Shown piece after piece: positions 1,135 to 19,890 of a stretch of 44,062 nt of DNA. A program made the translations under genes and the position numbers. Within the stretch, counting starts at the first letter, position 1. The number at the start of each line of letters is the position of its first letter. The notes under the pieces are model-generated. The model worked only from the letters and a program-made list of their open reading frames with translations. It was not told where the DNA came from and did not search any database. Source of the DNA: Hysterium pulicare CBS 123377 (lineage: Eukaryota; Ascomycota; Dothideomycetes; Hysteriales; Hysteriaceae); assembly GCA_000467715.1 (NCBI GenBank), contig AJFK01000100.1, positions 1 to 44,062 of the forward strand, read 5' to 3'.

Positions 1135-2502
1135 ATGTCAAATTTCAACACTCCCAACGGCCAGCCACCACTCAGTGGCTATCACATACGCAATCCCGGA
1201 GAGCAGTGGGAGGACGACGACGATCTCCCAGAGATAGTTCAAGTGCCACGGCATTTGGCGGAAGCATATCGGAAACCTGCAACAATGGCAACTCCACCAA
1301 CGGCACCAGCAACAACGGCTCAAATTACGGCGCAACGGCCAACACCGGACACAACGGTATCTCAGGATCTCCACAAGCCTGGGATGGTGACTTTCAAAAA
1401 GAAAGGCAAGAAGGGGCGTGAGGCACCTCCGGAGGAAGAGCAAGGACCAATGGCACAACTTGAGGCTGCAATGGAAGCCGGAGACTTTCAAGGTGTAAAA
1501 CGGATGCATCAAGAGCTGCTGGATAAAATGCAGACAATGGAGAAGAAGGTCTCCAGAATGGAAAGGGATATTCGCCAGCAGTGCGAAACGGAGCTGATGG
1601 CCCAGTACACCGAACTCGCAAAATCGCGAGAGGAGGTCGCGACATCGGAAAAGGAGGCTGCTAGAAAGCAGAACCACAATGCCTTCCGAACTCAAAGTTT
1701 GGAAAGCTGGGAAACATCGCTAGTAACGCGAGAGAAGAAACTGGAAGCTGACGGTCTCGATCAGGAAACGGTGCGAAAGGCTTGCGACGCCGAAATCGAG
1801 CGCGCAAAACGGGATAAAAGGATCGAGCTCGACTCCATGCTCAAGAACAGGGAGGAGGGTTTTACGGCGCGGAAAAACGAGCTCGATGCTCGAGACAGGG
1901 CCATGACGGAAAAGGAGGGTTTGGAGCTTGCGAAGGCTTCCGCCCGCGACGCTAAGATGGGCGACGAATACAAACGGCAAATAGAGGAGTTGACTTCGAA
2001 AATGGAGTCTATGACAACGGAGAGGAAGAGGATGATCCCAAAGGATGCGCACCAGGCTGAGGTCAAGAGGGCCTACAGCAATGGCTCGAAAGTCGGAGCG
2101 CAAAAGAACCGCGACCAAGGCATTCTCGAAGGCATTAATTTTGCCATGAGAAGATCGGCGGCGCATGAGGCAATCCGGCAGAGGAAGACACCCATGGGTT
2201 TGACGGCAGCCGAAATACAGGCGACTGGGGACAAGAAGCATACGGACCACCTTTTCCAGTGGGGTATAAGGGTTGGTCAACATGCTAACCGGATTTTGTT
2301 GTAAGTCAATTTCCATGCCGCAAAGATCCCAATCTAACTCGTGCCAAGACACCAGAAGCTCGTGCCCAACGCGAGCGTATGGGATACCCGGGATATTCGG
2401 ACACCATGGCGATCGGACGATCTTTACGATCCTCTGGAACAATTCGACCCGGACGGCTATTACGGCGGAATCGATATTGGAATGGACCTGGCAGAAAAGT
2501 AG
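1135..2502 (+). CDS. Coiled-coil protein, unknown function (439 aa, one intron)
   Basis: I do not recognise the family. Exons are 1135-2300 and 2349-2502, with a 48-bp intron (GTAAGT donor, CTAAC branch site at 2334-2338, acceptor CCAAG). This acceptor was chosen over the AG at 2355 because it leads into an acidic, non-random C-terminus ending LAEK at 2500-2502; the later AG gives a different frame. The start at 1135 is preferred to the in-frame ATG at 1015 because the interval is a C/T-rich leader. Residues 1-110 are polar and low-complexity with a DDDD tract. From about 110 to 310 the protein is a charged Glu/Lys/Arg helix, probably a coiled coil. A compact C-terminal part follows (about 315-439) with Asp/Tyr-rich motifs such as DLYDPLEQFDPDGYYGG. 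No membrane segment or signal peptide is visible. The 3' side carries a hairpin array. Confidence 0.7.
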
Positions 2503-2505
2503 GTG

Positions 2506-2837
2506 GAGCATGCTCTATGCGGTTTGACATGCTGATGATTTCAAGGGGCATCGCAACGACCCCGGATTATCCCGGAGAGCACAATGACCTATACAATTAA
2601 ATATTGTTAGGAATACAACGGCCACTCAACCTGATTGAACTCTTCAGTGTCACTGGCATTATCAGCCAGGATGTCTGATTCAAATCAGCAACGACTCCAA
2701 CCATATCGTCCGACGCAGCTCGGCAGTAATACTCTTCATCACTGGTGCAAGACCAGAAACGCCGAGGACGTTCGGCACCGGAGGAGAATTCTGATAGTAA
2801 CCATCAGAAGATCACGTCATCTGGCGCAATTCGTCAG
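2506..2837 (+). repeat. Hairpin array E, 3' of the first coiled-coil gene
   Basis: This is a run of short inverted repeats starting 4 bases after the stop codon. Clear members are GAGCATGCTC (2506-2515), ACAAT-TAAAT-ATTGT (2593-2607), CTGGC/GCCAG (2653-2669), CTGATT-CA-AATCAG (2675-2688), CTGGT-GCAAG-ACCAG (2742-2756), GCCGA/TCGGC (2761-2776), TTCTGAT/ATCAGAA (2789-2809) and CTGGCG-CAATT-CGTCAG (2821-2837, one G-T). A weaker member lies at 2631-2647. Spacing is 19-38 bp, often 22 or 30. Sequences differ strongly between units while unit length (14-17) and fold persist. It is less regular than arrays A-D. Confidence 0.55.
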
Positions 2838-5030
2838 TCATGACTTCGAGCGGAGGTTACAATGGAGGAGGTGGAGGAGAGATTGTAGAATTAGAAACGA
2901 ACTTTTGTTATTGTGCCATTCTCTAAAACATCTCATCCGAAGGTGCTGCAACTCCTCACCAACCGGAACGATGTATGTCTTCCGGTTGAGCTGCGTGAAC
3001 TGTTGGCTATCATACCACTGCGTCGAAGCATTTGTCAAAGCCTAAGCCCCGTGCAGCCATATTAGAGGGTAGAGGTAACTTCCACACTGCCCAACTGATT
3101 ACGTACCACTTCCGTAGGCCGTAGTCATGTTATGAGTACATTCAGTTTCTAATCCTGTCTAAGTTCTTTGCTCTTCTACAGGGCGTTAGAGTTATGACCA
3201 GAATCAGGTAAAGTAGCTTTATAAAAAAGCAAGGTTTGACTGCGATGATTTCAAGGAACAGTTCCTAAGATTATGTTCAAAAGAGGGTCTCGAGATGCCC
3301 CACTCTACAACTAGAATTATTGCTACTTCTTATTGGTGTTTAGACTTGTTGACTCCCACAGAAGGAATCTTAGAACGCGAAATTGAGCATTACCACAATA
3401 TTTGGGACCATTCCTCCGCTAACTCGCCCAAGTGGAAGGATTACGTCCAACTGCATTTGCTTAAAAGCTCGATGGTTGTTCTTTTCCTTAAGGATTAGAT
3501 AAGAACTTGAATACTGCCTCCACCAACCTCTTTAAACTATAATGGTGTTTGCTATAGGGGCTGAATTTACTATCGCATAATTAGAACTTGACGTGATAAG
3601 ACACGCCTCCGCGGGTTGAGAAAATAGGATTTAAGGTTTAAGGGATGCTTCATTCTATCGTCACACAATTCGGTCAAGGGCATGCACAAGATCTCTCTTA
3701 CGATACCAAAGATGGATCTTCAAAGCTAGTGGAAGGCCAACATGCCTTTTCAAAACGGTAATAGCGTAGGCGGGTTTGAGACTAGTGTGAACTCCGCATA
3801 ATCTTTTGCTACAAATGTTATACAAACGTTATTAGCAGAGCCTACAACTCCCCAATAGAAGGACATTGTCAAGATATTATAGCGATCCTTATGGAGGCTG
3901 CCACAGGTGGAAATGCAGAGGTTTTGACCATCTCAGAAGCCTCGCCTCAAGCAATAGGAGTGTATGATTGAAGGATTATTTCCCCCGGAGTTAGAAGAGT
4001 AAGCTATCTACTCAAGGAAGTGCTGCTAAACCTCTAGTCAGAGTCAATTATAATCTTGGTCCCAATACCTGTTAAACTTGGTATCTTTTCCGAAGTTAAC
4101 CAGAACATCAAGTTGAGCGATATCGAGGATTGCCTTGACAATTCCAAAACGTTCTGCCCAACTGCTACCCGAATGGCCCCTGGAGGGCGTTCAATATGTT
4201 ATCGCAGCCACCCCGGTGCACGAGGATGCCCTGGTAGGCGTCGTATGTAGACCAAGGCCAGGGTCAGATTTGGTGCAGCGTAGACAGCAGGGCCCAGTGA
4301 GGAGAAGCAATGGTTGTAATCTACTGTAGTCTACTCTTGACTACCTCTTCCATATGAATTTCCTTCACTTCGACCTGTATCCTCTAACAGCGGGTAGGAC
4401 TATTAATCTTTGACATTGACTAGGAAATAATGGACCCCGCGTATTCAACTCACATCGACTATATACGAGCTAGGCTAGATACGTACGCTGGACCTCTTAT
4501 GCTCAGCCACTAATGCAAGAATTGACCGAACACTTGTTGGATGTTGACTTCGTTCCAGCATGGATGCGAATTCGCACACGGGCGTACGAGGAGGATGTCC
4601 GTTCTGCGAATGCCTTACAGAATAATGATAGTCTTGGAATCAGGTACAGGGACTTCTGTTGAGGTCCAAATCTTTTCGCAAACTCCCCAACTCCAATCTA
4701 CGCCCAAAAGTTGCTACTGAGTCGGTCATTAGTCAATGGTAATGATACCTAGTCTTGAACTCTTTGTGTTAGACCATCATGATCCTGGCAACGCATGCAA
4801 GCTCAACACCCCAAGGTCATGATTGGACCAAGAGTTGGCTTGGGAGCACTCACTGAATTACACCATTTTGTCAGGGGAAATAGTAGCATTTCGTGAAATT
4901 TAAATCCATATCAAGAGCCCCCGTTTTTAGAATGAATGGTCGAGCGGTAAAATCCGTGAATGTTGTTGGATAGGTGCACTCGGGCTGTCCTAATTGATTA
5001 AAGTGGAAACGTTTTGGAGGTCCAAATCTG

Positions 5031-5140
5031 GGAAGTACCTATGCTATACGATACTTTCTATATAGCCGCAAAGATGGCAACTTGCTTTTGCGCCTAGTAC
5101 GGAGTCTAAATCGGCTTTGTAGGCTGGTGGTAAAGAAGGT
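5031..5140. repeat. Direct repeat, copy 1
   Basis: About 110 bp that recurs as a diverged copy at 5276-5384. The best conserved blocks are GGCAACTTGCTTTTG near the middle and GGTAAAGAAGGT at the right end. The offset between copies is about 245 bp. It is probably the remnant of a repeat or of a local duplication. Confidence 0.75.
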
Positions 5141-5275
5141 CTCAGCTCGACGCTGAGGATCTCGGCTGAATTGCCAACCGTTCAATTGAGCACTGCTTCG
5201 GACTGCGCCAGTAGTATAGTCCACAATGGGTATCATATATAGGGCACTGTGAACCCTCTTGAAGGTACAGGACTA

Positions 5276-5384
5276 GGAAGCACCTATGCCAATGATACTT
5301 TCCGAATGGCCTTAGAGGTGGCAACTTGCTTTTGAGCCTAGTACCGAGTAGAAATTGGCTTTATAGGCTGATGGTAAAGAAGGT
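5276..5384. repeat. Direct repeat, copy 2
   Basis: Diverged copy of 5031-5140 in the same orientation, with the same internal GGCAACTTGCTTTTG block and the same GGTAAAGAAGGT end. Many differences are transitions, which would suit repeat-induced point mutation or simple age. Confidence 0.75.
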
Positions 5385-5578
5385 GGTATGCGCAGACCCA
5401 GTCTTCGATACGACGAATCATGACGCCTTTGTGTGGTGATTCACATCATGTGAATGATGCACCTTGGTCCTTGGCACTTTGAAACAGCAACATGAACAGA
5501 TCTCCAGCGCTCACTGACAATCTATTCCCTCCCACTTCACCCTCATCATCAACAAGCCGTACCATACTTCTTGCCATC

Positions 5579-6823
5579 ATGGACGCGTTTTCAAGGCCAT
5601 CGGATCGTTCGCATCTTCAGGATGATGGGCATGTTGGAGAGTACACTTCACGCCTCCGGGAACACCCAACAACGGCAGAAGCACGCGACTTTCTTGCGGA
5701 TCGCGAGGAAACGGACAAATCAAGGGACATTAGATACCATGAAAGGAAGACTCTGGAACAAGAACAGACATTGGAAACGCTGAGCGCAGGTGTTACAAAG
5801 GTTACATCTAGCAAAGCTAGAGATCGTTCGGAGGATGTTCGACGATTACCTATTGAGCGGCAAAATGAATTCTCGATGTCTACGAATGAAACGAGAATAT
5901 TTGGAACACCTACCGGCCAATTCACGTTTAGTTCGCCAGGACCAGCCATTTTTTCTAGTCCTTCGAATGTACGGCACGGGAGCGAGAGTGGCAATCCTCT
6001 TCGATCATCATATCTGCGCATATCGGAACCAGATCTCTTTGCTGAAGATAAAGACTTGGACACTGGGGTTGGAGGAACTATCGAAGACGAATGGGAAGAT
6101 GAACCATTGGATGATGGAATGGATTTTGAATACGGCAGGGTGTTTTCTCCACCACATGGAGATGATCATGCTGATGAAGACCCTAATTTAATGGAAGAAG
6201 AGGAAACTGAATTTGGCGAGAACCAGAGTGTTCGAGATTGGAGGCTTGAAAGAGTACAACGTCCCCAAACTGGAAGTCCTTTCGAGTCATCACCAGGCCC
6301 ATCGTTTGGAAGAAGACCCCTGGGCCCTCCCAAGCCAAGACGGAATCCAGCGCACAAGCCAACGAAGAGTACGGATAACAAGCCAGCATACCAAGAATTG
6401 CCCTTGGCTGTACTGTCGGCAGCAGGGGATGCGTGGCTGGAACTGGAAACACTGGGTGAGGACATGGTCAAAAAGCTCAAGGATCACATTCAACCCATGG
6501 TAAAAACGGCAAAATACAAGGATGCATATCGGCGACTGCCAAACGCAAGCAGAGCGGTGTGTGTGGAGTGTGAGGTGGTCACCCACAATAAAAAAACCTG
6601 CACTTGGAAAAATGGAAACGATTTCGCGTGCGACATGTGCGTAAAGTCAAAGCGACCATGTGGGAGACTCATTGATGAGCCCCTAGACAATGGAGAGACT
6701 CGCCTGTTCATTGGGTTTGTACCTCTTCCTGGAGACATCAGGGAAGGTACGCGAAAAGAAGTCTCTTTCTGGATGGTGGATGATGAGGGCAAGAAGAAGA
6801 GGAGGAAGCGGAAGAGCGGTTAG
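5579..6823 (+). CDS. Acidic protein with C-terminal Cys/His cluster (414 aa)
   Basis: Unrecognised intronless gene. The start at 5579 is chosen because the upstream in-frame 87 bases from 5492 are C/T-rich leader-like sequence. Residues 1-100 are charged and helical. Residues 160-215 are strongly acidic (DEWEDEPLDDGMDFEY), followed by a Pro/Arg-rich linker. A compact domain starts near 275. It carries a possible metal site, C328-x2-C331-x4-H336-x4-C341-x9-C351-x2-C354-x6-C361. This is reminiscent of small fungal zinc folds but is not a canonical Zn2Cys6 pattern. The C-terminus is a basic tail (KKKRRKRKSG) that would serve as a nuclear signal. A DNA- or RNA-associated nuclear protein is a reasonable guess, no more. 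A related, shorter Cys/His pattern appears in the gene at 28296. The stop is followed within 5 bases by hairpin array A. Confidence 0.72.
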   Translation: MDAFSRPSDRSHLQDDGHVGEYTSRLREHPTTAEARDFLADREETDKSRDIRYHERKTLEQEQTLETLSAGVTKVTSSKARDRSEDVRRLPIERQNEFSMSTNETRIFGTPTGQFTFSSPGPAIFSSPSNVRHGSESGNPLRSSYLRISEPDLFAEDKDLDTGVGGTIEDEWEDEPLDDGMDFEYGRVFSPPHGDDHADEDPNLMEEEETEFGENQSVRDWRLERVQRPQTGSPFESSPGPSFGRRPLGPPKPRRNPAHKPTKSTDNKPAYQELPLAVLSAAGDAWLELETLGEDMVKKLKDHIQPMVKTAKYKDAYRRLPNASRAVCVECEVVTHNKKTCTWKNGNDFACDMCVKSKRPCGRLIDEPLDNGETRLFIGFVPLPGDIREGTRKEVSFWMVDDEGKKKRRKRKSG

Positions 6824-6827
6824 GAAA

Positions 6828-7172
6828 GCAGTTGGTATTCACTGCAGTTACCAGGAAGATACGATGCCAAAGAGCATCCATATCCATCGCCACGCGGACG
6901 AGCGCGATGCTCCTCATTGCCATAGAACTGCGAGTACGATGTTATCTATCGTCACGATGACCAAGTGCGATGCTATTCATCGCCACAGTAATACGAGTGC
7001 GATCTATTCTTCGCCACAATAATACGAGTGCGGTGCTATCTATCGCTTACAAACAGATGAGCGCGATGCTATTCATCGTCACAGCTTGCAACACCATGCG
7101 ATACTGCATCGCTGATGGGGGAGAAAACGATGTTAATTATCGTAGCAAACGGCAAGCGATGCTATTCTTCGC
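6828..7172 (+). repeat. Hairpin array A (about 31-bp period), 3' of the acidic Cys/His gene
   Basis: After a GCAGT/ACTGC hairpin (6828-6845) there are nine units of consensus GCGATG-CTATT-CATCGC. They start at 6904, 6936, 6967, 6999, 7030, 7063, 7098, 7127 and 7156, so spacing is 31-32 bp at first and 29-35 later. The spacer is partly conserved (CACAGTAATACGAGT). The units at 6936 and 7127 have ACGATG with TATCGT: the outer pair has changed from G-C to A-T on both sides. Other changes give G-T wobbles on the + strand, the sense strand of the preceding gene. Only the units at 6999 and 7156 have a true mismatch. The period is not a multiple of three, so this is not coding. Confidence 0.85.
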
Positions 7173-7482
7173 CTCGGCGTGGTCAAGTGGAGCGTTCTGG
7201 GAGACCGCATTCGTCGTCGCATTACCTATCTTGCGCTGGAAAACGTAATTGCGTGCGCGGCGTTGGTTGGGAGAACTGCTTGTGGCTCGGGAAGTAAATT
7301 TTGGCATGATGGGTAGTGTATGATAAAAGAAAGTAATCAATCCCTCTCATTGACCCCGATTATTAGGAAATCGTGTGAAGAGTAGCATGAATATGTCACT
7401 CTAGTGAACGTGGCGCACCTAGTATAAGCATAGCCCGGAATAATCTTGCCATTGTATCTACTCAACTTTTCCTAACCCGACA

Positions 7483-7728
7483 GCTGATTATTAAATCAGC
7501 GTCAACGAGTCTGATTTGACATCAGTACCGTTGAATCTGAAGCATAATTCAGTGGATTAGGATATATTAGTGGCGTCAAAGCTGATGAATTAACCAGACT
7601 TGAACATATGCTGATTGATAAATCAGACTGTTGTATGCTGATTGATAAATCAGTTTGTCGAACGCCGATCTTGATCGGACGTGGATGCCGAAATTCCAAT
7701 CTTACGCCGCACCTCGATCTTCATCGGG
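7483..7728 (-). repeat. Hairpin array C (about 27-bp period), 3' of the knuckle-RS gene
   Basis: Units are GCTGATT-ATTA-AATCAGC (7483-7500), CTGAT-TTGAC-ATCAG (7511-7525), CTGAA/TTCAG (7537-7552), a degenerate one near 7582, two identical CTGATT-GATA-AATCAG (7611-7626, 7638-7653), CCGATC-TT-GATCGG (7665-7678) and CTCGAT-CTTC-ATCGGG (7713-7728, one wobble). Spacing is 26-29 bp, with two double-length gaps where a unit seems eroded. The last unit ends one base from the stop codon of the minus-strand gene (stop at 7730-7732). Read along that gene, the loop of the identical pair is UAUC. Confidence 0.82.
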
Positions 7729-7729
7729 C

Positions 7730-9082
7730 TCACGCAGCTTGATCCTTTGTACCCGGAATCACCCTGTCCGCGTGCGCTTGATCACGCCATCGCGCGTACT
7801 CCTCTTCCGCTTTATCCGCTTCGCGAGCAGCAGCTTGCGCCTCATCCCTTCTGCGCAGTTGGTCCTGAAGGTAAGATCTCCGATTCTCGATCTCCACCAA
7901 CTCCGCTTCCCAATTTTCCGGTACGTCCGCACGATTCTCATGTTGAGATGCCGTTTCCATCCTGTCGCTGTCGTTGCCGTAGATACTCGATCGATCGGAA
8001 CGTCGCCTGACCGAAGTAACCACCGACGGTGCTCGAGATGGAGGCCGGAATGAGAGATCAATGTTCCCGCCAGACAAGTCCCGAATTCTCCTTCCTAATC
8101 CAAATATTAGTAAAGTCACAGTGAAGAAATGGAGCAGACATACCTTGGTCGAGATTTTCGAGACCACGAACCGTTGTGCCTGAGTAACCCGGATGGTAAC
8201 TTGGCGCCACTTGAATCGTAATGGGGTTACCCCTCAATGTTTGATAATCCATTGAGCGAGATCCGCGCCGAGACCGTGAACGAGAACGTTCTCGATACCG
8301 TGAGGAACGTGCCCGAGACCGAGAGCGAGTCCGAGAGCGAGTCCGTTCCCTATACCTGGAATGCCGTTCCCGATGCCGCGAAGAAGATCGCCCTCGGTGC
8401 CGTGAATGGGATCGACCCCGATGCCGTGAATAAGATCTCCTTCGATGCCGCGAACGAGATCGATCACGGTATCGAGAAGATGGCCTATCCCGAGAGTATG
8501 AACGATGAGGTCCAGGACTTCGAGACCTGCCTCGAGAATATCCGTCATTCCGATAATCCCTCCCGTAGCTCGATGATCCATTATCCCGTGAAGGGGGTCC
8601 ATTATCCCGGGGACGGGGTCCATTTTTTCCGTTTTCAGGTGTAGGTTTGATGACCAGCCCAGGAAGGGCTTCATACTTGCCTGCTAAAACACCAGCCCAA
8701 TTTATCCGTGCATGGCGACTCCACCAAGCCTTACATTGGTAAAGCAGAGGACAGACCTAAAAAGTTAGCAAATTGCAACCCTCAAAGCTTTAGAGCTTAC
8801 TTCGCCGTAATGTCCGTTGTTTATCGTATCTTTGCAATAATAGCAACGATTCCGACAATTAAGCCATTTCTCCCGATGTCCTATGTCGGCACTGTCACCA
8901 CAATGTATGCAATACAGGTAACAGTCCTTAACTCCCATTCCGTTCTTTGGTTCAATGTAATGACCTCGATGAGGCTCATTTTGCCTGTGTCGGTGGGGAT
9001 CGTCACCCCCTCCGCCGAATTTGCCAGAGCTGCCGTGTTGATACCCAGAGGTTGAGGCACGAGTCGTGCCGTAACCAGACAT
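7730..9082 (-). CDS. Two-zinc-knuckle protein with RS domain (419 aa, two introns)
   Basis: Exons on the minus strand are 9082-8801, 8756-8144 and 8094-7730. Introns are 44 and 49 bp (GTAAGC...TTTTTAG; GTATGT...GATTAG). The protein opens with a Gly/Ser/His-rich stretch. Two CCHC knuckles follow: C58-x2-C61-x7-H69-x6-C76 and C80-x2-C83-x7-H91-x4-C96. The last ligand, C96, is encoded at the start of exon 2, which supports the splice. A dense Arg/Ser domain covers about 168-262, and a charged helix lies near 355-405. RS domains and knuckles are typical of pre-mRNA splicing and mRNA-handling proteins. Here there is no RRM, so it is not a standard SR protein. It is divergent from the RGG-CCCH gene and convergent with the acidic Cys/His gene. 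The start at 9082 is preferred to 9187 because the interval is leader-like. Other frames across the Arg codons give long spurious ORFs. Confidence 0.82.
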
Positions 9083-9352
9083 CTTGAAAGCCTCGTTGGG
9101 AGTGAGAAACGAGACTGGGCGAATGGGGAGATGTGCGTCTAGAAAATTGTGGAAGTGTGCACTCTTGAAGTTAATGCCAAGCCTCATGCTTAGTCATCCC
9201 ACACGAGTGACATAACAATATTATTGACTTTGTTGTGACACGCTCCCCTTCCTGAACCACACGTCGACCCACCCTCTTTTTGATTTCTATACACCGTAAG
9301 CATCCCACCCAAAGCCCTTGAATACCTTGCGTGACTAATAAAAGCCTTCAAG
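9083..9352. promoter_or_regulatory. Shared divergent promoter of the knuckle-RS and RGG-CCCH genes
   Basis: This 270-bp gap lies between two divergent starts. Each side ends in a C/T-rich leader, and the two start contexts are nearly identical: TTTCAAGATGTC for the minus gene and CTTCAAGATGTC for the plus gene. CTAATAAAAG at 9335-9344 is AT-rich, but it is too close to the plus-strand ATG to call a TATA box with confidence. Co-expression of the pair is a natural expectation. Confidence 0.6.
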
Positions 9353-11411
9353 ATGTCGTATAGAGGTCATTCCTCATATTCTTACGGACGTCCCGGCAAC
9401 AGTGGCGGTCAAGGCTACAGCAGCCAACAGGGACAACAAGGAAGTCAAGATGACCATCATGGCAATGACAGTAAGGCTTCTCAGATCATCGTCGCTATGG
9501 AATGCTAACGCTCGCTCTAGGATACCGGCAAGACGATCGTGGGTACGACCACAGGTCACGCGATCGAGAACATCACGGTGAGGATTCGCGTATCCAGTTG
9601 TGCACTGAGGCAAATGCTAAAACAATCAAGGATACGGACACGGTCGGCGGACACCTTCTCCGGTACACTATGACCGGATAGTCGACCAGGCGAAACAACG
9701 GACACAAACGGTAGTGGAAACCTTCTTGGTTGAGCTAGAATCGCTCGTCATGGAGGCAACCGCCGCTGCAACTCTTGGGAAGGAGTTCAGCATACCACCG
9801 GAGGCGCCGGAATTCTTCAGGCTGCATATAGAGCAGGATTCTGAATGGAACCGGAGATACGAGACGATAAAGCAGGCTAAGGCCCTGCTGGAACGGAGAA
9901 AGGTAGATTCTCCAGATGCGACGCCAATCGCCGCTACTCGGCCGATGTCACATATCGGACAGAGAAGGGAGAACTCTCACAATGCGACGCAAAACGCCGC
10001 TTGTGGGCCGGTATCAAATATCGGGCCTGGAGGTACAGCAGGAAATGCTGCGGAGAAACCGATAGTAAACATCGGGAACGCAACGGCACCATCTCGGCCG
10101 CTTCCAATACTCGGTCCGAGACCCGCACCATATCTTAGCGGAAATCCGGTCTCAAATACCGGCGCGGGTGACTCGACGTCACTAATGGACCAACGTCGGG
10201 CGAGAATGCGGCAAGGGTCAGCTGCACCAGCTGCACCCACCCAGACCCCTCAACAAATGGGAATACCGGCGGCTGTTACAGCCATTAACAATGGGCTGTT
10301 CGCGCCAGCGCCCGCGCCATCCTACTCGCAGGCCGCGACTAAGCCTGCCCAGGTTCCAAGCCTGAACTTCGGCATTCCCGGGAGCATCCATGCTCCGGGA
10401 AATCAACAATCATCCGGCCGAGGTGGTGGTCCGGCTCGTGGCAGTGGTCGCGGTGGCCATGCTTCTCGCGGCGGGCACGCTGGTGGCGGATATCGTGGCG
10501 GATTTAAAGGAACACGAGCAACTCGTCCTCCACCGGATAATTGGTCTCGGTGGGAAACATACTGGGATCTGAAGCCACCACCAGGCATGATCTACAAGGA
10601 CAAAGACGGCAAGGTGTCCCCGGAGCAATACTGGGGCACCAAACGGAAGGACCTGGGTCTTTGTTTCGATGTGTATGGCAGAAACAAAGAACATTATTGC
10701 AAGTACTCTTCTGGAGAGTGCTTTTGGCGGCATCATGCGCTGGAGGCGGATGAAATAGAATGGGTGGACCCAGAATGGTACGAATGGGTGATGGAGAACA
10801 ACTTTAACGGCGATCGCTTCCCTCCGGACAGCGAAAAGTCAACATACAACGGACGACCACGGATTCGGAGTGATGGCTATGCTGTTTACAGTCCGCATAA
10901 AATTGTGCCTGCCTCCACGACAACACGGGAGTGGAACCTGGCTGCAATGGATCCGGACCGATTGCATACCCCTAAGCCAACGGAAGAGCAAACGCTGTTA
11001 GCGTCTCAGACACCGGATATCCGTAGCACATATCGTGTCCCGGGACAAGGCAAAATAACGGAAACCAGTAAAGGAAGATCGCTGAATGCTGACGTCCTGG
11101 ATGCATCAGGCGCACAGGTCCAGCAGGAGACTTACGGAGATTCTTTGAACAAGCTCAAAGGAAAGGCAAATGCGGACAATGCCGCTGACGAAAAGGCAGG
11201 GGAGGACAACGCTGCGAAGGACTCCGCAGTTCAGGATGGTGAGAGCGCGGACAAACCCGCAAAGGACGCAGGGAAGGGTGAGGAAGCGGAGAAGACGGAA
11301 AGCAGTAGCCCTGCAGAGAGTGCCGCAGAGAATAGCGGAGAAGGGGAAAAGGAAGAGGCGAAGGATGGGGAGGAGAAGGCGGCGGAACAAACGGAGGGGG
11401 CAGAGAAGTAG
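9353..11411 (+). CDS. RGG-box protein with CCCH-like finger (651 aa, two introns)
   Basis: Exons are 9353-9470, 9521-9577 and 9631-11411. Introns are 50 and 53 bp, with GTAAGG and GTGAGG donors and GCTAAC / GCTAAAA branch sites. The N-terminus is Tyr/Gly/Gln- then Arg/Asp/His-rich, of the disordered type found in granule-forming RNA-binding proteins. A helical segment follows (about 75-155), then a long Pro/Ala/Asn linker with imperfect repeats. An RGG box lies near 317-352 (GRGG, SRGG, YRGG). Next comes C403-x11-C415-x6-C422-x3-H426, close to a CCCH finger but with long spacings, in a Trp-rich domain. The tail (about 570-651) is a low-complexity Ala/Glu/Lys/Asp run. RGG plus CCCH points to RNA binding; the family itself I do not recognise. 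It shares a promoter with the knuckle-RS gene. Confidence 0.82.
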
Positions 11412-11418
11412 ATAATCT

Positions 11419-11541
11419 CTCCTACACCGGCGGAGCTATTTGCTCCTTTTCATGTTCCTCAATTTCAATGAATCGTTGAAATCGAGCTCTTTGCAGTTTG
11501 CTAGCACTATATGCGGTGTTGTCTGAATGGTGTTGCATTCA
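11419..11541 (+). repeat. Hairpins 3' of the RGG-CCCH gene
   Basis: Starting about 20 bases after the stop are GGAGC-TATTT-GCTCC (11432-11446), ATTTCAA/TTGAAAT (11462-11482, extendable by a T-G wobble to leave a 5-base loop) and TGAATG-GTGTTG-CATTCA (11524-11541). They are not obviously periodic and could be chance or a decayed array. I list them because the neighbouring genes show the same arrangement more clearly. Confidence 0.4.
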
Positions 11542-12047
11542 TGTTGAGGGGCGATGGAATGAAGTTGAGAAGTGTGCGACCGCCAAGTTGTTCTAGTCCC
11601 AACAAGGCCATTGCCGGTAAGCAGCCGCCGAACAGCAAGACGCTCTAAATTGCAATGATCGTAAAGACAACTACTTCCTACCCCAACAGCGTAGATTACC
11701 AATTTGACATTCGCTACGGTTTGTACTCTGCGTTCCTGAAGCATCTTCTCGAACATCTAATCTGCTGAATGCCATTTCCCGCACTGAGTTCATAAAGTGT
11801 AAGGCCTGTCTCCGCCGCTCTCTGCCTGCTGCGTCTGCATATTCCGATTGATTTCAGTGGGTTAAGGGCAGATAGTGGAGCGCAAACTTTGTTCGGGGGC
11901 TCGTAACGCTCAGTAGTATGTGGTGGGCGATTGAGAACCATGAGATCGCTTAACCATTTCCGTCCTAGCCCCTGCGGCCTTCCATTACTCTAATCCCAAC
12001 GACGGCGCCAACTCCGCTTCCTCTCCAACCTTTCATCTTTCTACAAA
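11542..12047. other. Intergenic gap with leader of the next gene
   Basis: No gene is seen here. A few weak inverted repeats continue from the hairpins upstream, for example TTGTT/AACAA near 11588-11605. The last 80 bases are C/T-rich and form the likely 5' leader of the coiled-coil gene at 12048. Confidence 0.5.
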
Positions 12048-13666
12048 ATGGCCTCCGGATCACGATCCCCGGAGAAATCCTCTACAGGCTACTCTTCAGC
12101 ACACTATGTACGGTTTGGAGTTGCAGAAGAATTCAACATGAATACGGAACGGCTTGCTCTGGCAGCTGCGTACAACGATGACACTTTCCCAGAGCTCGAG
12201 GCGCAATTAACGGAATTAAAGACGAAAACGGCATTCAGAGCGGAGCTACTCGATGGAGCTAAAGGCATTAGGGAGGGTCTTGAAGCGGATTTGAAATCGG
12301 GTGAAAAATTGGCCATGCTGGCTGATCTGGATAGTGCTCGAAGTATGCTCACCCTCAACGATGATGATTTACAGATGCTTAAAGAACTTCTCCAGAGAAT
12401 CTGGCTGAGCAAGTCAAGCTCTTCAATGACTTGTCCGCGAACCATCAGAGTTTGCAAAATGACAATCAACGGCTTCAAACAGAAGTTAAGAAAGCCAAGG
12501 AAACCCAGCGGCATTATGATCAGACGGACACGAGCTTGCAAAGCTTGCAGCGTCAGCTTGACGAGAAAATGGCCTCGGTTGGAAGGTTGGAAGCAGAGAA
12601 CCTTACCTTGAAAAAGGAGCTTGATGAAAAGGAGGGCGAGCTTCTTGGGGTCCAAAAAGGCCTGAATCAAGTGGAGGAAGACCTCAAAACGGAGCAACTC
12701 AAGATTTGCAGCCGAGATGAGGCCATCGGAAAGAAAGACGGAGAGATTCAGACCTTGGAGTCTCAACAGGAGGATAGCATCGAGGAGATCGAAAAGCTCA
12801 AGAAGACGCTAGGTGAAAAAGAGCGGAAAATCAATGATCTCGAGGGTGATATAGGCGAAAAAGACCGAAAGATTTCGGAGCAAGAGTCGCACATTGGAAA
12901 GCAGAGTCAAGATATTAAGAATCTTGAGGACGATGCTACCGGAGACCGCGAAAGGATAACGGAGCTGGAAACAAAGCTTGATAACGCTATATCCGCAAAA
13001 GAGGAGGCGAAGAACGAACTCGAGCAATGTGGCAGAAAATGGAGACGGGAGACGGACGATACTAGGTCAAAATACATCGATGCTTTATTCACCAAGGACA
13101 AAGCAATCGAAGCCGAGAAGGCGAGAGCTGACAAGGTCACAACGGAACTAGAAGAGAATGTAACGGCTTTGGGAAAGCTCCAGGTGGAATTGGACGATCT
13201 GGATGTCAAATTCGACGAACTTGGCGCTCAAGTCACATATGTTCTCTCGGACTCTGCTCGGCACTTCGCTTTGGAGCCAAAGCAATTCTTCCCCGAATTC
13301 TTCAAAAAGGACATAAGAGCGCAGCCTACGCAATGGGTTAAAGACCGCCGGCGCCAGCTGGACACCGCTATCAAGGAAAGATTGGCAAATCTCGAGCTTT
13401 TCAAGAAATGTCTCGAGGATACTAAAACTGAATTGGCGAACGCGCGGCGACAGCGGGATCAATATCATTGGGACTTGAAAGTCTGCCGGGCAAATATCAA
13501 GTCGATGCAGGATGGAGAAGATCAATTCTCTATTCAATGCACTAACCTAATGCAGCTGGTAAATGAAAGGGATGGAGAAATCGCAAGTTTCGAGGAAATC
13601 ATCAAGAAGAAAGACATAATCATCCAACGGTATGAGAATGTGATCAAGGGCTATCTGGAAGGCTGA
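12048..13666 (+). CDS. Long coiled-coil protein, unknown function (521 aa, one intron)
   Basis: Exons are 12048-12342 and 12396-13666. Two long ORFs overlap here in different frames. A 53-bp intron (GTATGC donor, TGCTTAAAG-like branch, acceptor TCTCCAG) joins them, so no frameshift is needed and heptads run unbroken across the junction (LDSARKNLAEQVKLF). Residues 30-330 are almost continuous Glu/Lys/Leu coiled coil, with internal motifs resembling each other (EKDRKISEQES, EKERKINDLEG). The C-terminal part (about 375-521) is a separate helical region with Phe- and Trp-containing motifs (FPEFFKKD, QWVKDRRRQLD) and a distal helix ending in GYLEG. It resembles golgin- or tropomyosin-like scaffolds only in composition. 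There is no membrane segment or signal. Hairpin array B begins one base after the stop codon. Confidence 0.75.
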
Positions 13667-13667
13667 G

Positions 13668-13975
13668 GCGATAATTCACCGCGAAAAGCCAAGCAACATT
13701 ATGTATTGCCGCAGCGCAAACTGTGCGATCGATAATCATCGCAATCCTGCAGAATTATCGCGGACAGAGCGATGCAGTTCATTCTAACTAAAGGCGGTAC
13801 TAATTACTGCGACGATAAGCGATGCTATTCTTCGCGAGAAACATACGGTACCGTTCACAGCAGAGAACAAGCGATGCCATTCTTCGCGCTGCTATTCACT
13901 TCAACGAGCAAGCGATGCTATTTATCGTGGGATCAAGCGTATTAATTACGCAGAGTAAGCGATGCCAATCATCGC
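13668..13975 (+). repeat. Hairpin array B (about 25-bp period), 3' of the long coiled-coil gene
   Basis: The core is the same as in array A with a different period. Units start at 13668, 13693, 13725, 13769, 13794, 13819, 13845, 13871, 13912, 13937 and 13959; most steps are 22-26 bp. Clear stems are GCGGTA-CTAAT-TACTGC (13794-13810), GCGATG-CTATT-TATCGT (13912-13928), GCGTA-TTAAT-TACGC (13937-13951) and GCGATG-CCAAT-CATCGC (13959-13975). Units such as GCGATG-CTATT-CTTCGC (13819) keep five pairs and one mismatch. Substitutions in the different units again mostly preserve pairing. Confidence 0.82.
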
Positions 13976-16190
13976 GGTGTGATCCATTGCGCATATTGGT
14001 TTCATGTAAATCTAAAGCCACTGTCAAGTATCTAATTTATTTTCCGCGTAGTGAAATGGTGCTTAAGTCTGGTCTCGTCCAAACTAATCACTGAGCCCGA
14101 AGGATAATGCTTAATAGCTATAAGCCGGTGATTACTACATCAATGTGCTACAATTACGCGCATGCATCTCTTCAGCGTCATCCACACCCGATACTCAAAT
14201 GCAATTTACGTCTTAACTCGGAAAAGAGAAGAGGCATCAGATTCTCACCTTGCCTTTGGCCTCCAGAATACACCATTTCGAACGGATAGACCGTACACCT
14301 TATGAAGAAAAGGTGTGCGCGCGGAACCGTCCTGTTGGGTAAGTTCTAACGAGAATAAGATTGAATGTTGGCCTTTTCTCCACTTAGTCAAGCTATAATA
14401 GGTTACGGAAAGTGGCCTTTAGGGTACTTTGTGATACTTCTGTTAGAAGATCGACGTAGTTGATAGGTATAGGGTGACCTCGTGTGCTGTCGCTATTCTG
14501 ATGTGATGAAACTGTTACGAGGTCAATGATTGGCTCTCAAATCTTTCATGTTCTCCCGAGAATGCTGCACTGTATGCCGCTTGAACTTATGCCAAAGCTA
14601 ATAATACTAGGCAAATCGGCTATAGCATTATCTTTCTGATCACACGAGGTCCTCTTGAAATTGATAACATGAATGATGGGATCCAATATTCTTGGTCCAT
14701 CCTAGAAGCGAATACGTTGCAATATCTTCCGCAGTCCCATCCAACGTCGCTAAAGGTATCCTATAGTTTTCCAGACCACAAAGTTAATTCGACGGTGCCT
14801 AAATTATGATTAAGGGCTTATTGACCTGTTAATAACGTTCGTAAAGACTCGATTAATGCTACAACTCCCTTTTCCTCTGGAAATTCCCCATCGGTGGGTC
14901 GACACCATTCGAAAATAGCTAGTCAATTAGTCAACCGCAAACATATATCGTATTCAACTGCGTACTAAGTCCTACTACAGCTCCTAAAGAAAAGGATGTT
15001 AGAATAGTTGAGATCAGTATACGTATAACCGCATTATACGATATGCCACTAAGATTCAATGCTTATCACTTTCAACGCAACAATACTAGGTGCTATGGCT
15101 CACCTTTCTTAAGAGCGAAGCGAGTTGCTCTACCGTGACAGGCAACGGGCAACCAGCAACATGTTTTAGAGAAACGGCCGTGCTTTCTAAGATCGTATCA
15201 AAATCGCCGTAGCTAGTCGCTTTGTTCACCTCAACCTTCAAAGAGGAATGCTTGCCCAGATACTTTGCTGTCTTGATATACACTACTTAGGTGCAACATT
15301 AATCGTCCCTGCTAGCTCGACACGGTAGAAATATTCTGATCCTAGCCATATAGAGGATTTAGTCTTCCTCAAAGCATATGCGGTGTTCCTCGGTTCAATG
15401 TTAAATTTTAAGGGAATATCAAGAGAACGAACCATTTCCACTGCAAAGGTCTTTTAGTTAGATTCAGACTATGGGAGTGTTACCTGCTAACTCACTCTAC
15501 GTTGTACGGCTCCCATACCGCACCGTTTTTGGCGTTTGAGATCTTCTTCCCGAGAAAAAATTTGCCAGATTGCGAATACAAGAATCCGATCGGTTTATCT
15601 TGTGATTAGAACCCCATCCTACTACGCTGTGGGGGGTCTCGGTCTCATATAACTCTTCCGTGTTCCGAAATAAAGGCGCCGACATAGGGTCTCAAATATA
15701 TAGGGATCCCAATATAGGGCCCCAGGGCTCATGTAAAGTCCCCTTGTCGCTCAAAATGAACCAAACCAGGTTATGATAGCTAAATTTCAGGGCTGAAAAC
15801 GACTCAGATTTAGAATAGCTGATCTAGATTTCAGGCTGTGACACAGCATTCTCAATGGCCAACATAACCGAAAAAATGTGAGACACCGACTACGAGGCTG
15901 AGGCATTCAAAGAGTAGGGCCTAAAGTTCCACGCTAGAGCACATATCATGCTGAAAGGCCACAGCTTTGCAGCTGAAGCTATTATAAAGAGAGTGAGACA
16001 CTTTGTGAAGAGCCTTATAATGAGCTAGACAAGAATGGACGTCTACGTTTACAGCTAGAGTGCCGCTTACCTCCTCTCACTTATATAGCCGATATATCAA
16101 AAGCAAACAAAGTTTGTAGATGCTCACCTGTCTCTAGATGTATTCTTCGATAATCTCAGAGGAATACCACGATTAGCCTATGTTGTTGCT
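13976..16190. other. Decayed intergenic sequence
   Basis: Only short ORFs and AT-rich, stop-rich stretches are present. It lies immediately before the polyketide synthase relic, so the ketosynthase part may once have been here. I could not find a KS active-site or HGTGT-type motif by reading, so it is either gone or too mutated. Confidence 0.45.
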
Positions 16191-16193
16191 TAG

Positions 16194-17129
16194 TACAGAG
16201 GTAGACTTGCTGCCAGACTGGCGGAAGCGGCCAAATTGCGCGGAGCAATGATGTCCGTGACTCTATTTTAAGAGAACGTGTATTATTTTAAGAGCGCAAG
16301 ATATACGACGGTATCATTCACTCTGTCACCGTTGATGTTTTAACAGCCCGTCAAATGTTACACAATCCGGCCGACTGAGTCCTCTAGATTTTAAAAGGGA
16401 AAGCACGACAAGGACAAATCTTTGCCTTGAAGCTCAGCACAGCCGGCGAGGCGTATCATTCGCCCACTATGCAAGCTGTCGCTTCGGAGTACTACGGCTC
16501 TGTGGGCTTACTTTACCCCGGAGATCATGGCCAGTGCAATCCCAATGATCCCATTTGTCACTGGTCAGCCCGTCAAATCGCCCGCGCAAACGTTTTCAAC
16601 GCCCAATATCGGGTTGAGAACATGGTCCGTCCTGTGTTGTTTTCGCAAGCCCTTTCATGTCTTTACAATTCTTCTCTGGGCGTAAATTTGGAGACACTCC
16701 TTTACCAAGGATTGATGAGTTGATTGAGATTGACCAACATTAGGCGCTACGGCGTCTTGCGCAGGATGTCACGATGCAACTGACTGGAAAGCGAAGCGTC
16801 AGATATATTTCTGCCCCCATCGTGTTTTAGCTCACCCGTCAGGAACATTCTTCAGCTAGTCAAACCATTGTTCAGTTGCAGTTATTCTGTCGCAATCTCT
16901 CTTGCTAATCAAGCCCCGACTCCGATTGCGAAGCCACCCAACTCCCTGATAGACACACCACTATACGCGTTCAGCTAATCCTAAAGTTACTGGTATGAAT
17001 CTCGTCTGAGTTAGGATTTCTAGATCGCGGAGCTCCAGACCCTCATATCTGCTCGGCTTTCCAGCTTCAGACTGGAATCCATTAGAGCCGCGTTGGCGGA
17101 AGTTATTGAGCATCGAAGTTAAGCTATGA
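16194..17129 (+). pseudogene. Relic of a highly reducing polyketide synthase (AT to start of DH)
   Basis: Fragments of an iterative type I PKS occur in the right order but in changing frames. At 16194-16262 the frame reads YRGRLAARLAEAAKLRGAMM, the acyltransferase segment after the nucleophile elbow. At 16336-16371 it reads CFNSPSNVTQSG, the NSPxxVTxSG block. At 16427-16723 it reads KLSTAGEAYHSPTM, containing the catalytic His block, followed by YRVENMVRPVLFSQAL. At 17043-17129 it reads YLLGFPASDWNPLEPRWRK, the LLG...NPxEPRW start of the dehydratase domain, then a stop. Frame changes and stops separate all the blocks, and no ketosynthase or downstream domains are visible. It is certainly non-functional as a synthase. 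Confidence 0.85.
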
Positions 17130-17213
17130 ATAGTGGACTATGCGGTATGTATGGATTCGAGACGAAATATAATAGTGTTCTAATTAGTCCATTAGTGCGA
17201 CAGTGAAAAGGGG

Positions 17214-17462
17214 TTAGTTTTCACCAATAATCCGCTGTGCGAACGACCTCGCCATATCACTCAGTCCTTTTCCACCAACCATGCTTTTCCCATCGCCAAT
17301 GTCCTTTTGAAAACCACTGTTCGCCGCTCCGGCTACCCCCGGTGCTCGAGCCATCGTCTTCGGTGTCATTGTAGCCGCTGTCGGAGCCACCAGTCTCGTC
17401 CTGTCGAGCATATTTTTCCGCTCTAGGCGTAACTTATGTGAGAATCGATCATGTGAAGACAT
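17214..17462 (-). CDS. Small hypothetical protein (82 aa)
   Basis: A single ORF of 82 codons with plausible amino-acid composition: basic N-terminus (FSHKLRLERKNMLDRTRL), an Ala/Thr/Pro/Met middle, and a Gly/Lys-rich C-terminus ending RIIGEN. I recognise no domain. It lies between the PKS relic and the 3' side of the unknown gene at 18256, with no ORF overlapping it on the other strand. It could be a real small gene, the last exon of something longer, or chance. Confidence 0.35.
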   Translation of the reverse strand: MSSHDRFSHKLRLERKNMLDRTRLVAPTAATMTPKTMARAPGVAGAANSGFQKDIGDGKSMVGGKGLSDMARSFAQRIIGEN

Positions 17463-17963
17463 TCGCTGATAGTAATTCTCTGGTTTTTAAATCATCCAGG
17501 TGCCTTCTTGAGAGCGCAGGAGATCACAAGCTTTGTGTGTTGTGATGGACCGTCGGGATTTGTCGCAGATTCTAACATGAACATCTCAGGGGACTGCTTT
17601 CGGGTTTCCACCTCGGGGCCAACGGCACAAGAAGATAAGGCGCAATCTTAAGTTCCTGTACTACTGCTGCTTCTTTCAGAATCGATATCTGCAATTGGTT
17701 ATGATAGCTTTTGATAGAAAGCCAACTCAGCGACAACTGGATACTTATTATAAATCGGGTGGGCAAAAAGTTCACAGTCACTGACAGTAATTGATCATCG
17801 TCATTTGCTGTATTGATACCTGGGTAACATGAGAGCATTTAGTTTGGCGAGGTTGATTTACGGATGCGATTTTAATCAAAGACCACGACGTAGCTGACGT
17901 ATTGTGCTTGAATTTGGCCCCGTGCTGAACTTGAGGCAAAGCTTGAATTACTATCTACTGAGC
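17463..17963. other. Intergenic, nothing recognised
   Basis: One short minus-strand ORF (17572-17838) has an unconvincing composition. No repeat or domain was seen before hairpin array D begins at 17964. Confidence 0.4.
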
Positions 17964-18261
17964 CTGATGAATCCTTATCAGTGCTCAGACTCTAAATCGC
18001 AGCATTGAGCTGATGAGTGCCGATTACCGATTAATAACAGCGGTCTTAGAGGACTCTTCAGGCTGATAATTGATATCTGCTCTGAACTGCCAAAGTGGAT
18101 CGATGATTGATATCGATTTTGAGTTGTTCGTGCAGGCCAATGCTTCAAATTAGTCCTGCGGTGTACTGGCCGGCTAATGATTGCTATTAGCCTTGAATTA
18201 TGATGCAGGCTGATGAATGACATCAGTCCTGAATGATAGCAATCCGACCTTGACTTCAAGG
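17964..18261 (-). repeat. Hairpin array D (about 36-bp period), 3' of the 544-aa gene
   Basis: Units start at 17964, 18027, 18063, 18099, 18137, 18174, 18210 and 18248, so most steps are 36-38 bp. Good stems are TCGATG-ATTGA-TATCGA within 18099-18117, CTAATG-ATTGC-TATTAG extended to GGCTAATG/TATTAGCC (18172-18192), CTGATG-AATGA-CATCAG (18210-18226) and CCTTGA-CT-TCAAGG (18248-18261). The last contains the stop codon of the minus-strand gene (TGA at 18258-18256). The units at 18027 and 18137 keep only four pairs each. In several units the G-T wobble lies on the + strand, antisense to the gene, so pairing in that transcript would be one step weaker. Confidence 0.78.
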
Positions 18262-19890
18262 TAACTCCGGCAGAGGCCGCCAGTCATTCCATTTGCCCTT
18301 GAGCTCATCCACTGTCTGCTTGCCCTTCTTCGACCGCGTGTGAAGTCCCGGATCTACTCGAAGTACCGTTTCCAGGTTGTCGTTGGTCAAAGTGTAGGCA
18401 CGAGAAGCGTTATCCTCCAGGGTCTTCATCGTTTCCTGCTGCTCTGTTTCCAATGTCTGAAGTCCCTGTATCTGCTGCTGCAACCTTCTCTTCCTTGAGG
18501 TATTGACTCGAGTAGCCTCAACCGCCATGTTTTTCTTCCAGGGAGTCTCCTCCATAATCCATTTCTGCCAGTCATTCCATTTAGTTTTCTTCTCCTTGTC
18601 CGTTTTCTTGTTCATATAGATACTTGTTGTATGAACTCCAGCTTTGGCAAGCGCAAAGCCACCTCCAGTTTCCGGGAATGCGTTAGCAAGCCTCGTAAGA
18701 AGTATTTCTGCGTACGCTGCATGTGTTTCGTCACCGAGCATGCATATAATGAAGGTCATCATACTGTAGTTGTCAAACAGATATTGACACGTTGATGCCA
18801 TCAATGCCATGAGATAGTTAGTTAGTCCCTTACCAGCATCATGCTGTTCCTGCCTTGACTCAGCGTCGAACGCATAACCGACATATTGCAAAGGTGGATG
18901 AAGTGGGCTGGATTTATCCACCTTCAAATTTTCAATCCGATTCTCCAGCGCGGTACAAAAGGCCTTGATGTTCCTCTCAGACTTATCCGTCCGCATGTAT
19001 CGTCGGTGGCCGTTCTCTGAATCCTCCTTCGTCCATTCTCTATCATAAACTCGATCGATTTGATAGGCAACCGTATCATGGAAGCCAGTTGTGTCGACAT
19101 AATATCGCATAAATTTGCAAGCCTGAAGCAGCTCCAAAGCTGTAGGTCCATTTCCGTCAGCTCCCGATAATATTCGGGTATATATTGAAGGCTGGAGTTT
19201 TGAACGAGCTTCAAACTTTTCCAGTGACTGTACCAATTCATCCGATCCTCCAGAAAGATATGCAAACACTAAATTTCCACTGACAATCTCCCGGACGACA
19301 TCTTCATTCATGCTACAGAGAATAGCACCACAAGCATGACGCCAGGTCGACAACGGTCGATCCCGCAGTATAGAATGATTAGCAGCTTGCTCATCATAAT
19401 AAGCGGTATCAATCAGAGGAAGATAACCATGCTCCGGTATCCCTAAGGCCAGTGTAGTATAATCCGATTGCTGGAACGGTTTAGAAAGAGATAATCCTCC
19501 ACCCCCACCATCCTCATCTGAATTCGCTTCAGTACTTGAGCCTTCACTCCGCAAAGCAGCTTTTCCTCGTCTGCGCTGTTCCATATCTTCCGGGCTATCA
19601 TCCAAATCCGTCTCTTGTGAATCCGGTAATACGCGATTTGAACTTGACCTTCTCAAGGGTATTTGGACGCTCACCAAAGGCCTCCGAGTCAAAGTTGGTC
19701 CAGTATCCAGTATGTTTTCCGCGGCGCGAAGGAGTTGCTGTGTTCCTGTTTGCGTGTCTCCAACGCTCTCTTCGCTGCCAGTGCTAGTATCCTCATCGTC
19801 CTCTTTATGCCGTGTAGCCGTTTGTGTTCTATCATCCGTCCAGTCTAGATCGGACGAATGATCATCCGTCGCTCTTCTCAGGCGGGGCAT
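18256..19890 (-). CDS. Unknown protein (544 aa)
   Basis: A single uninterrupted ORF. It can be extended upstream to 20103, but ATG 19890 (MPRLRRATDD) follows a leader-like stretch and is the likelier start. Residues 1-140 are disordered, Asp/Glu/Arg/Ser-rich. From about 150 to 420 lies a folded, mostly helical globular domain with many aromatic residues (STWRHACGAILCSMNEDVV, YVDTTGFHDTVAYQID) and a hydrophobic helix pair near 375-415, too mixed with polar residues to be clear membrane segments. A coiled coil lies near 470-505. The C-terminus contains KWNDW twice, near 450 and 533. I recognise no family or catalytic motif. Its stop codon lies inside the first hairpin of array D. Confidence 0.72.
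   Translation of the reverse strand: MPRLRRATDDHSSDLDWTDDRTQTATRHKEDDEDTSTGSEESVGDTQTGTQQLLRAAENILDTGPTLTRRPLVSVQIPLRRSSSNRVLPDSQETDLDDSPEDMEQRRRGKAALRSEGSSTEANSDEDGGGGGLSLSKPFQQSDYTTLALGIPEHGYLPLIDTAYYDEQAANHSILRDRPLSTWRHACGAILCSMNEDVVREIVSGNLVFAYLSGGSDELVQSLEKFEARSKLQPSIYTRILSGADGNGPTALELLQACKFMRYYVDTTGFHDTVAYQIDRVYDREWTKEDSENGHRRYMRTDKSERNIKAFCTALENRIENLKVDKSSPLHPPLQYVGYAFDAESRQEQHDAGKGLTNYLMALMASTCQYLFDNYSMMTFIICMLGDETHAAYAEILLTRLANAFPETGGGFALAKAGVHTTSIYMNKKTDKEKKTKWNDWQKWIMEETPWKKNMAVEATRVNTSRKRRLQQQIQGLQTLETEQQETMKTLEDNASRAYTLTNDNLETVLRVDPGLHTRSKKGKQTVDELKGKWNDWRPLPELP

Follow-up and report, generated by a model that had tools for sequence, protein, structure and literature searches.

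The window analysed here is an entire contig (C83; 44,062 bases) of the 37.2-Mb Hysterium pulicare genome, which is assembled in 596 contigs. On its left, six genes for which the protein searches made gave no relatives occupy 20 kb, and its right part holds ordinary genes, for example those for an MFS transporter and an ankyrin protein (Pfam). Both the predicted GT-AG introns and the genes present have a fungal look. The short hairpins that follow the stop codons of the left-hand genes raise two questions: (i) whether they form a real feature of this gene set and (ii) at what level such a feature acts. A preliminary description, made from the sequence alone, had reported hairpin arrays starting at the stop codons of five of the six genes. 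As a whole that observation is partly confirmed: the arrays are real, and their number and spacing differ from those reported.

The six genes encode proteins of several kinds. Gene g1 (1135..2502, + strand) specifies a coiled coil and has a predicted intron at 2301-2348, with the frame open across the GT-AG join. The open frame g2 (5579..6823, +) has a cysteine-rich C-terminal half and a relative on contig C548. Several exons, with provisional exact joins, make up g3 (7730..9082, -), which combines a zinc-binding pattern with an Arg-Ser-rich stretch; the latter is encoded by the minus strand of a degenerate 21-48 bp repeat in the middle of the gene (window 8270-8640). The product of g4 (9353..11411, +; predicted introns) is RGG-rich with a CCCH-like stretch and has relatives on C548 and C121. 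A second coiled coil is encoded by g5 (12048..13666, +), where a join near 12301-12431 is provisional. The best conserved of the six is g6 (18256..20103, -), a 615-codon frame with relatives on C548 and C180. A Pfam scan of the cluster proteins, apart from parts of g3 and g5, gave no family above the cut-off. Searches of a large protein set with g6 alone, g2 alone and a g6 profile gave no match at E 0.001 among the word-sharing candidates that were scored (8000 each for g6 alone and the g6 profile). A viral relative of g6 was looked for and none was confirmed. One weak PDB profile match to a BEN domain (E 0.13) was not used. Within the genome itself, g1 exon 1 and g5 found no relative, and the g5 search missed the link to g5p given below.

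We identified repeated hairpin families behind four of the six genes. Array A (6904..7172, +), after g2, has seven hairpins of the family GCGATG-CTATT-CATCGC. Array C (7483..7678, -), after g3, has five of the family CTGATT-TATC-AATCAG, plus a related CCGAT-CAAG-ATCGG. Array B (13819..13975, +), after g5, has four hairpins of the same family as A, with further hairpins from 13724, and array D (18063..18226, -), after g6, has three of the family CTGATG-TCATT-CATCAG plus an extra CTGAT..ATCAG hairpin at 17964-17981. The fifth array reported previously, in the flank of g1 (flank E; 2503..2809, +), is hairpin-rich but reaches a family size of only 1. A start 0-5 bases from the stop codon is true only of weak hairpins outside the families; the first family member lies 30-153 nt after the stop (A +81, C +77, B +153, D +30), with a related hairpin already at +52 in C and another perfect hairpin at +58 in B. 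Stems are 5-9 bp long, and the arrays are in part tandem duplications. Stem and loop sequences do differ between arrays, as described, except that A and B have one family in common (GCGATGCTATTCATCGC and variants). With at most two mismatches, the GCGATGCTATTCATCGC family occurs at seven places in A and B and six elsewhere in 37.2 Mb, the latter being taken as chance matches.

A second cluster carries the same kind of arrangement. Own-genome searches with g6 and g2 led to relatives close together on C548, where positions 20001-44000 hold the gene types zn1, zn2, g5p, g6p, g2p and g4p; zn1 and zn2 have the zinc region of g3. Matched protein parts are 28-37% identical between clusters, and the g5/g5p link is weak (36 residues, E 0.026). 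At the DNA level blastn between the clusters, arrays included, gave no match at E 0.001, and the stems of the C548 hairpins are unrelated to those of the window. Families nevertheless follow zn1 (six members), g6p (five) and g2p (three). Behind zn2 lie six bulged hairpins of one kind within a 38-nt repeat, which fail the family test because an ungapped test misses the bulge; the g5p flank has a single strong hairpin and also fails. The types with 3' hairpins in both clusters are g2/g2p, g3/zn1 and zn2, and g6/g6p, with one hairpin at g5p. Neither cluster has a 3' family that belongs to the g4 type, the g4 and g4p flanks both failing the test; in flank x, which belongs to a g4 homologue on C548, there is overlap with the g2p array of the opposite strand. 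No hairpin family was found at the GH47 gene that flanks the C548 cluster on one side, on its other side up to C548 44000 (+ strand scan), or in the DNA scanned (+ strand) around the relatives of g6 (C180) and g4 (C121). Inspection by eye showed three good hairpins of different sequences about 250-390 nt 3' of the C180 gene (L039 818-910). A T-run of about 13 follows soon after the zn1 array (L044 about 1893-1905) and one of about 6 soon after the g2p array (L036 about 2215); both resemble a terminator or 3'-end signal.

Addressing the first question, we counted similar, still-paired hairpins within each 400-nt 3' flank. The largest families have 7 (A), 5 (C), 4 (B) and 3 (D) members, against 1 each in E and behind the sixth gene, so that at a threshold of at least 3 members four of six flanks are positive in the window and 7 of 12 over both clusters. 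Three members were reached by 0 of 109 control 3' flanks, by 0 of 1868 windows of 400 nt that overlap along both strands of 20 sampled regions, and by 0 of 200 dinucleotide shuffles of each of the seven positive flanks. The control flanks belong to mechanical open reading frames (stop to stop, at least 150 aa) rather than annotated genes; these frames lie in the 20 sampled regions, in L045 and in the part of the window beyond 20200, and the sample covers about 0.2 Mb of the genome. The metric and its cut-offs were fixed after the arrays had been seen, and identical cut-offs were applied to all controls. Two earlier claims hold on these counts: the arrays have position and fold in common, with families in four window flanks and none in the sampled ordinary 3' flanks, and the right-hand genes, whose frames are among the 109 controls, lack them.

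General measures of structure separate the flanks less well. Summed over 300 nt, the hairpin scores of E, A, C, zn1 and g6p exceed in z all 76 control flanks; B, D, the sixth gene, zn2, g5p, g2p and x are unremarkable singly. As groups, the 12 cluster flanks score above the 76 controls (Mann-Whitney p 1.2e-4 for the score, 5.5e-4 for z). Flank E has a z of 2.2, above 76 of 76 controls, and a raw score matched by 2 of 76. The three hairpins that had been noted about 20 bases past the sixth gene, g4, are present (11432..11541, +) but within chance, with a flank z of 0.9 and 18 of 76 controls equally high. Perfect hairpins per 400 nt number 6 in E, 7 in A, 8 in C, 4 behind the sixth gene, 4 in B and 4 in D, compared with means of 1.7-2.4 and maxima of 5-8 in shuffles. 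A folding z-score against dinucleotide shuffles, proposed previously as a check, is weak (mean 24-mer minimum free energy z: E -2.3, A -1.8, C -1.3, sixth gene -0.1, B -1.5, D -0.2). Local folding energy is a poor detector of the arrays and the general tests are weak; the signal is one of repetition and covariation rather than stability.

The arms of the hairpins covary. Within families, 13 two-sided arm changes were counted where about 3 are expected (Fisher p 5e-8), and 12 of the 13 keep Watson-Crick pairing. Over identity cut-offs from 0.55 to 0.75 the p values are 9e-6, 4e-8, 2.5e-7, 6e-6 and 0.048, the result at 0.75 being marginal; because the members of an array depend on one another, these values serve as guides. 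Among non-Watson-Crick cells read on the mRNA (sense) strand, G-U outnumbers A-C by 15 to 1, with ratios of 23:11, 17:3, 15:1, 14:1 and 10:1 over the same cut-offs. This excess is clear only when members are chosen by identity to a reference hairpin, and looser counts are without it (39:50, and 19:12 with p 0.14). Both the arrays and their covariation are read directly from the DNA letters.

On C548, a conserved element of about 80 nt follows the zn2, g5p and g6p arrays. Their helices P1, P2, P3 and P4 cross one another as those of the HDV ribozyme do, in a nested double pseudoknot. In an alignment of five copies (these three and two from C217 and C300), P1, P2 and P3 are paired throughout, the mismatches being one in P4 of zn2 and one in the P2 extension of g6p, and each helix shows compensatory changes. 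All five have a C-G at the cleavage site, loop E in P4 and an extra C between P2 and P3. The extracts of a report on fungal HDV variants (BMC Genomics, 2017) give a cleavage-site C-G, loop E and an extra nucleotide between P2 and P3 as marks of the class, count 230 such ribozymes and describe self-cleavage in vitro (PMC5640933). The C548 elements carry the sequence marks of this variant ribozyme, and self-cleavage is predicted. The cut would fall 4 nt after the last hairpin and 253 nt after the stop codon in g6p, 2 and 68 nt in g5p, and 2 and 238 nt in zn2. Fold and spacing are visible in the sequence; cleavage in this organism is an inference.

Ribozymes of this kind also occur apart from arrays. 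Rfam returned no match to the ribozymes or to the arrays, and a topology descriptor had no match in 389 kb of sampled strand. Motif and topology scans found no ribozyme beside the window arrays A-E; one isolated topology match, at 16530, adjoins no array. One search gave 18 matches against 21 in a reversed control, and full pairing identified 5 of the 18 as ribozymes, the other 13 being judged from the matched string alone. A looser pattern run on the whole genome matched 12 places (8 exactly, 4 with a single mismatch) against 1 in the control, of which seven were inspected: the three on C548 and one each on C217, C300, C565 and C16. The ribozymes on C217 (L046 1269-1342) and C300 (L047 833-908) lie about 230 and 120 nt, respectively, after the stop of a same-strand open frame. 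No hairpin family accompanies the four outside C548 (by family scan for C217 and C300; by eye, as were the folds, for C565 and C16), which makes ribozyme and array separable. In the 7 of 12 places inspected, the ribozymes are dispersed and stand together with an array in the C548 cluster only. The copies on C565 (L049) and C16 (L050) resemble each other in the sequence just upstream of the cut, a likeness that points to a dispersed repeat.

Hairpin families are also present inside coding sequence. A + strand scan detected them in g4, zn1 and g5p, at a level reached by 0 of 100 synonymous shuffles. The g4 family (9942..10162, +; CCGRT-7 nt-AYCGG) exceeds 100 of 100 such shuffles, and its separate copies form the series CCGAT/ATCGG, CCGGT/ATCGG, CCGGT/ACCGG. 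The zn1 and g5p families are carried along by tandem protein repeats; the zn1 hairpins (L044 118-308) lie in a 42-bp tandem repeat that encodes a Pro/Gln-rich repeat.

No report of such hairpin arrays in fungi was found in the literature searched, in agreement with the earlier statement that no fungal element of this type had been described. The arrays do not fit the defining features of any family tested. By analogy they appear closest to yeast virus-like elements, followed by the mimivirus hairpin rule and histone mRNA ends. Metazoan replication-dependent histone mRNAs are cut a few nucleotides beyond a short hairpin, which stands in place of poly(A); it is a single hairpin of conserved sequence that is served by protein machinery at histone genes. 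A predicted cut a few nucleotides past a hairpin is a likeness to the C548 arrays; the array stems, however, differ from one another and have no Rfam match, and no histone domain was found (Pfam). The mimivirus rule is reportedly due to Byrne in 2009. According to extracts of one account, a gene-specific palindrome ends the mRNA; a viral RNase III-like enzyme cuts this hairpin, and polyadenylation follows (PMC4402537). There the hairpin is single, whereas the present system has rows of them and a ribozyme. In the pGKL cytoplasmic virus-like elements of yeast, as excerpts of their description have it, 1-4 stem loops without a common motif lie near each stop codon (median 26 nt), and the mRNAs lack poly(A) (PMC6211774). 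The same excerpts describe cytoplasmic DNA, an own RNA polymerase and U-tract termination, whereas our clusters combine genes that have predicted spliceosomal introns with ribozymes and with hairpins that repeat and covary. A hairpin followed by a U-tract is not the rule here: a T5 run is present at just one of A-E (D, at +487), and two C548 arrays (zn1, g2p) do have T-runs. The C548 elements agree with fungal variant HDV ribozymes in double-pseudoknot topology and the three class marks; the extracts of PMC5640933 describe no placement after hairpin arrays, and the window arrays, with no ribozyme found beside them, are unlike that setting.

Potentially addressing the second question, we propose that the arrays act at the mRNA level, as structures at the 3' terminus that either stand in for the poly(A) end or protect it, a reading to which we give about an even chance. 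Messages of this gene system would end, or would once have ended, in a row of short hairpins. Transcription would run through the array, and in the zn2, g5p and g6p messages the predicted ribozyme would cut 2-4 nt past the last hairpin, so that the RNA would finish in hairpins with a 2',3'-cyclic phosphate in place of poly(A). The array would do the work of the tail by blocking or slowing 3' decay, and might be held by the cluster's own zinc/RGG proteins; the stem sequence would be free to drift while pairing persists. For this reading speak the 7 of 12 cluster flanks against 0 of 109 controls, the covariation, the sense-strand G-U excess, the hairpins of homologous gene types without DNA match, ribozymes directly behind three arrays, with a predicted cut 2-4 nt past the last hairpin and belonging to a class that self-cleaves in vitro, and a flanking GH47 gene without a family. 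Against it stand window arrays without a ribozyme, the lack of an Rfam match, the flat looser G-U counts, the marginal covariation at identity 0.75, the flanks E, g4, g4p, g5p and zn2 that fail the family test, the relatives on C180 and C121 without a family, and the four inspected ribozymes that have no array. Since no ribozyme was seen at the window arrays, zn1 and g2p, their 3' ends must arise otherwise. The core of the preliminary interpretation, which named no mechanism, is upheld and strengthened by the second cluster and the ribozymes; its count and spacing fail.

The hairpins may instead be tags that mark cluster mRNAs for their own RNA-binding proteins, in translation control, localisation, condensates or packaging, with the ribozyme merely trimming the end; we regard this as possible but doubtful. 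Hairpins in coding sequence would serve such a role equally, and the families inside g4, zn1 and g5p fit it, as do the zinc/RGG proteins encoded by both clusters. The zn1 and g5p coding families, however, follow tandem protein repeats, a single binder would have to read shape because stems and loops differ between arrays, and the 2-4 nt to the predicted cut suggests an end function. It is rather unlikely, in our judgement, that the arrays have no function and reflect fast-evolving flanks that gain palindromes by template switching and tandem duplication, processes that would also perfect the arms. The arrays are partly tandem duplications, and template switching can mimic compensatory change. 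Against such turnover stand the 0 of 1868 sampled windows with such a family, the G-U excess on one strand, which it would not be expected to give, and the recurrence of arrays after the stops of homologous genes and before ribozymes.

A role at the DNA level, as palindromic protein-binding sites, or as transcription terminators built of a hairpin and a U-tract, seems improbable. The dyad symmetry and the T-runs after the zn1 and g2p arrays are compatible with it, and the yeast virus-like elements, in the excerpts noted, finish their mRNAs, which lack poly(A), at stem loops close to stop codons (PMC6211774). The G-U bias on the sense strand and the solitary T5 run of D argue against it, and the predicted GT-AG introns in g1 and g4 speak for nuclear genes. 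More broadly, the clusters could be copies of an RNA-centred selfish or host-adopted system, whose proteins bind hairpin tags on the very mRNAs that encode them and in which array and ribozyme replace poly(A), so that a private mRNA pool would be stored, moved or packaged apart from that of the host. We offer this as speculation and think it more probably wrong than right by a wide measure.

Eukaryotic mRNAs without poly(A) are rare, and the sequence gives a hint that mRNAs may here be finished unusually, with no normal tail. The occurrence of array and ribozyme in one repeated order after stop codons bears on whether ribozymes make working mRNA ends in fungi, and repeated, covarying hairpins behind stop codons provide a search rule by which such gene systems may be recognised elsewhere.
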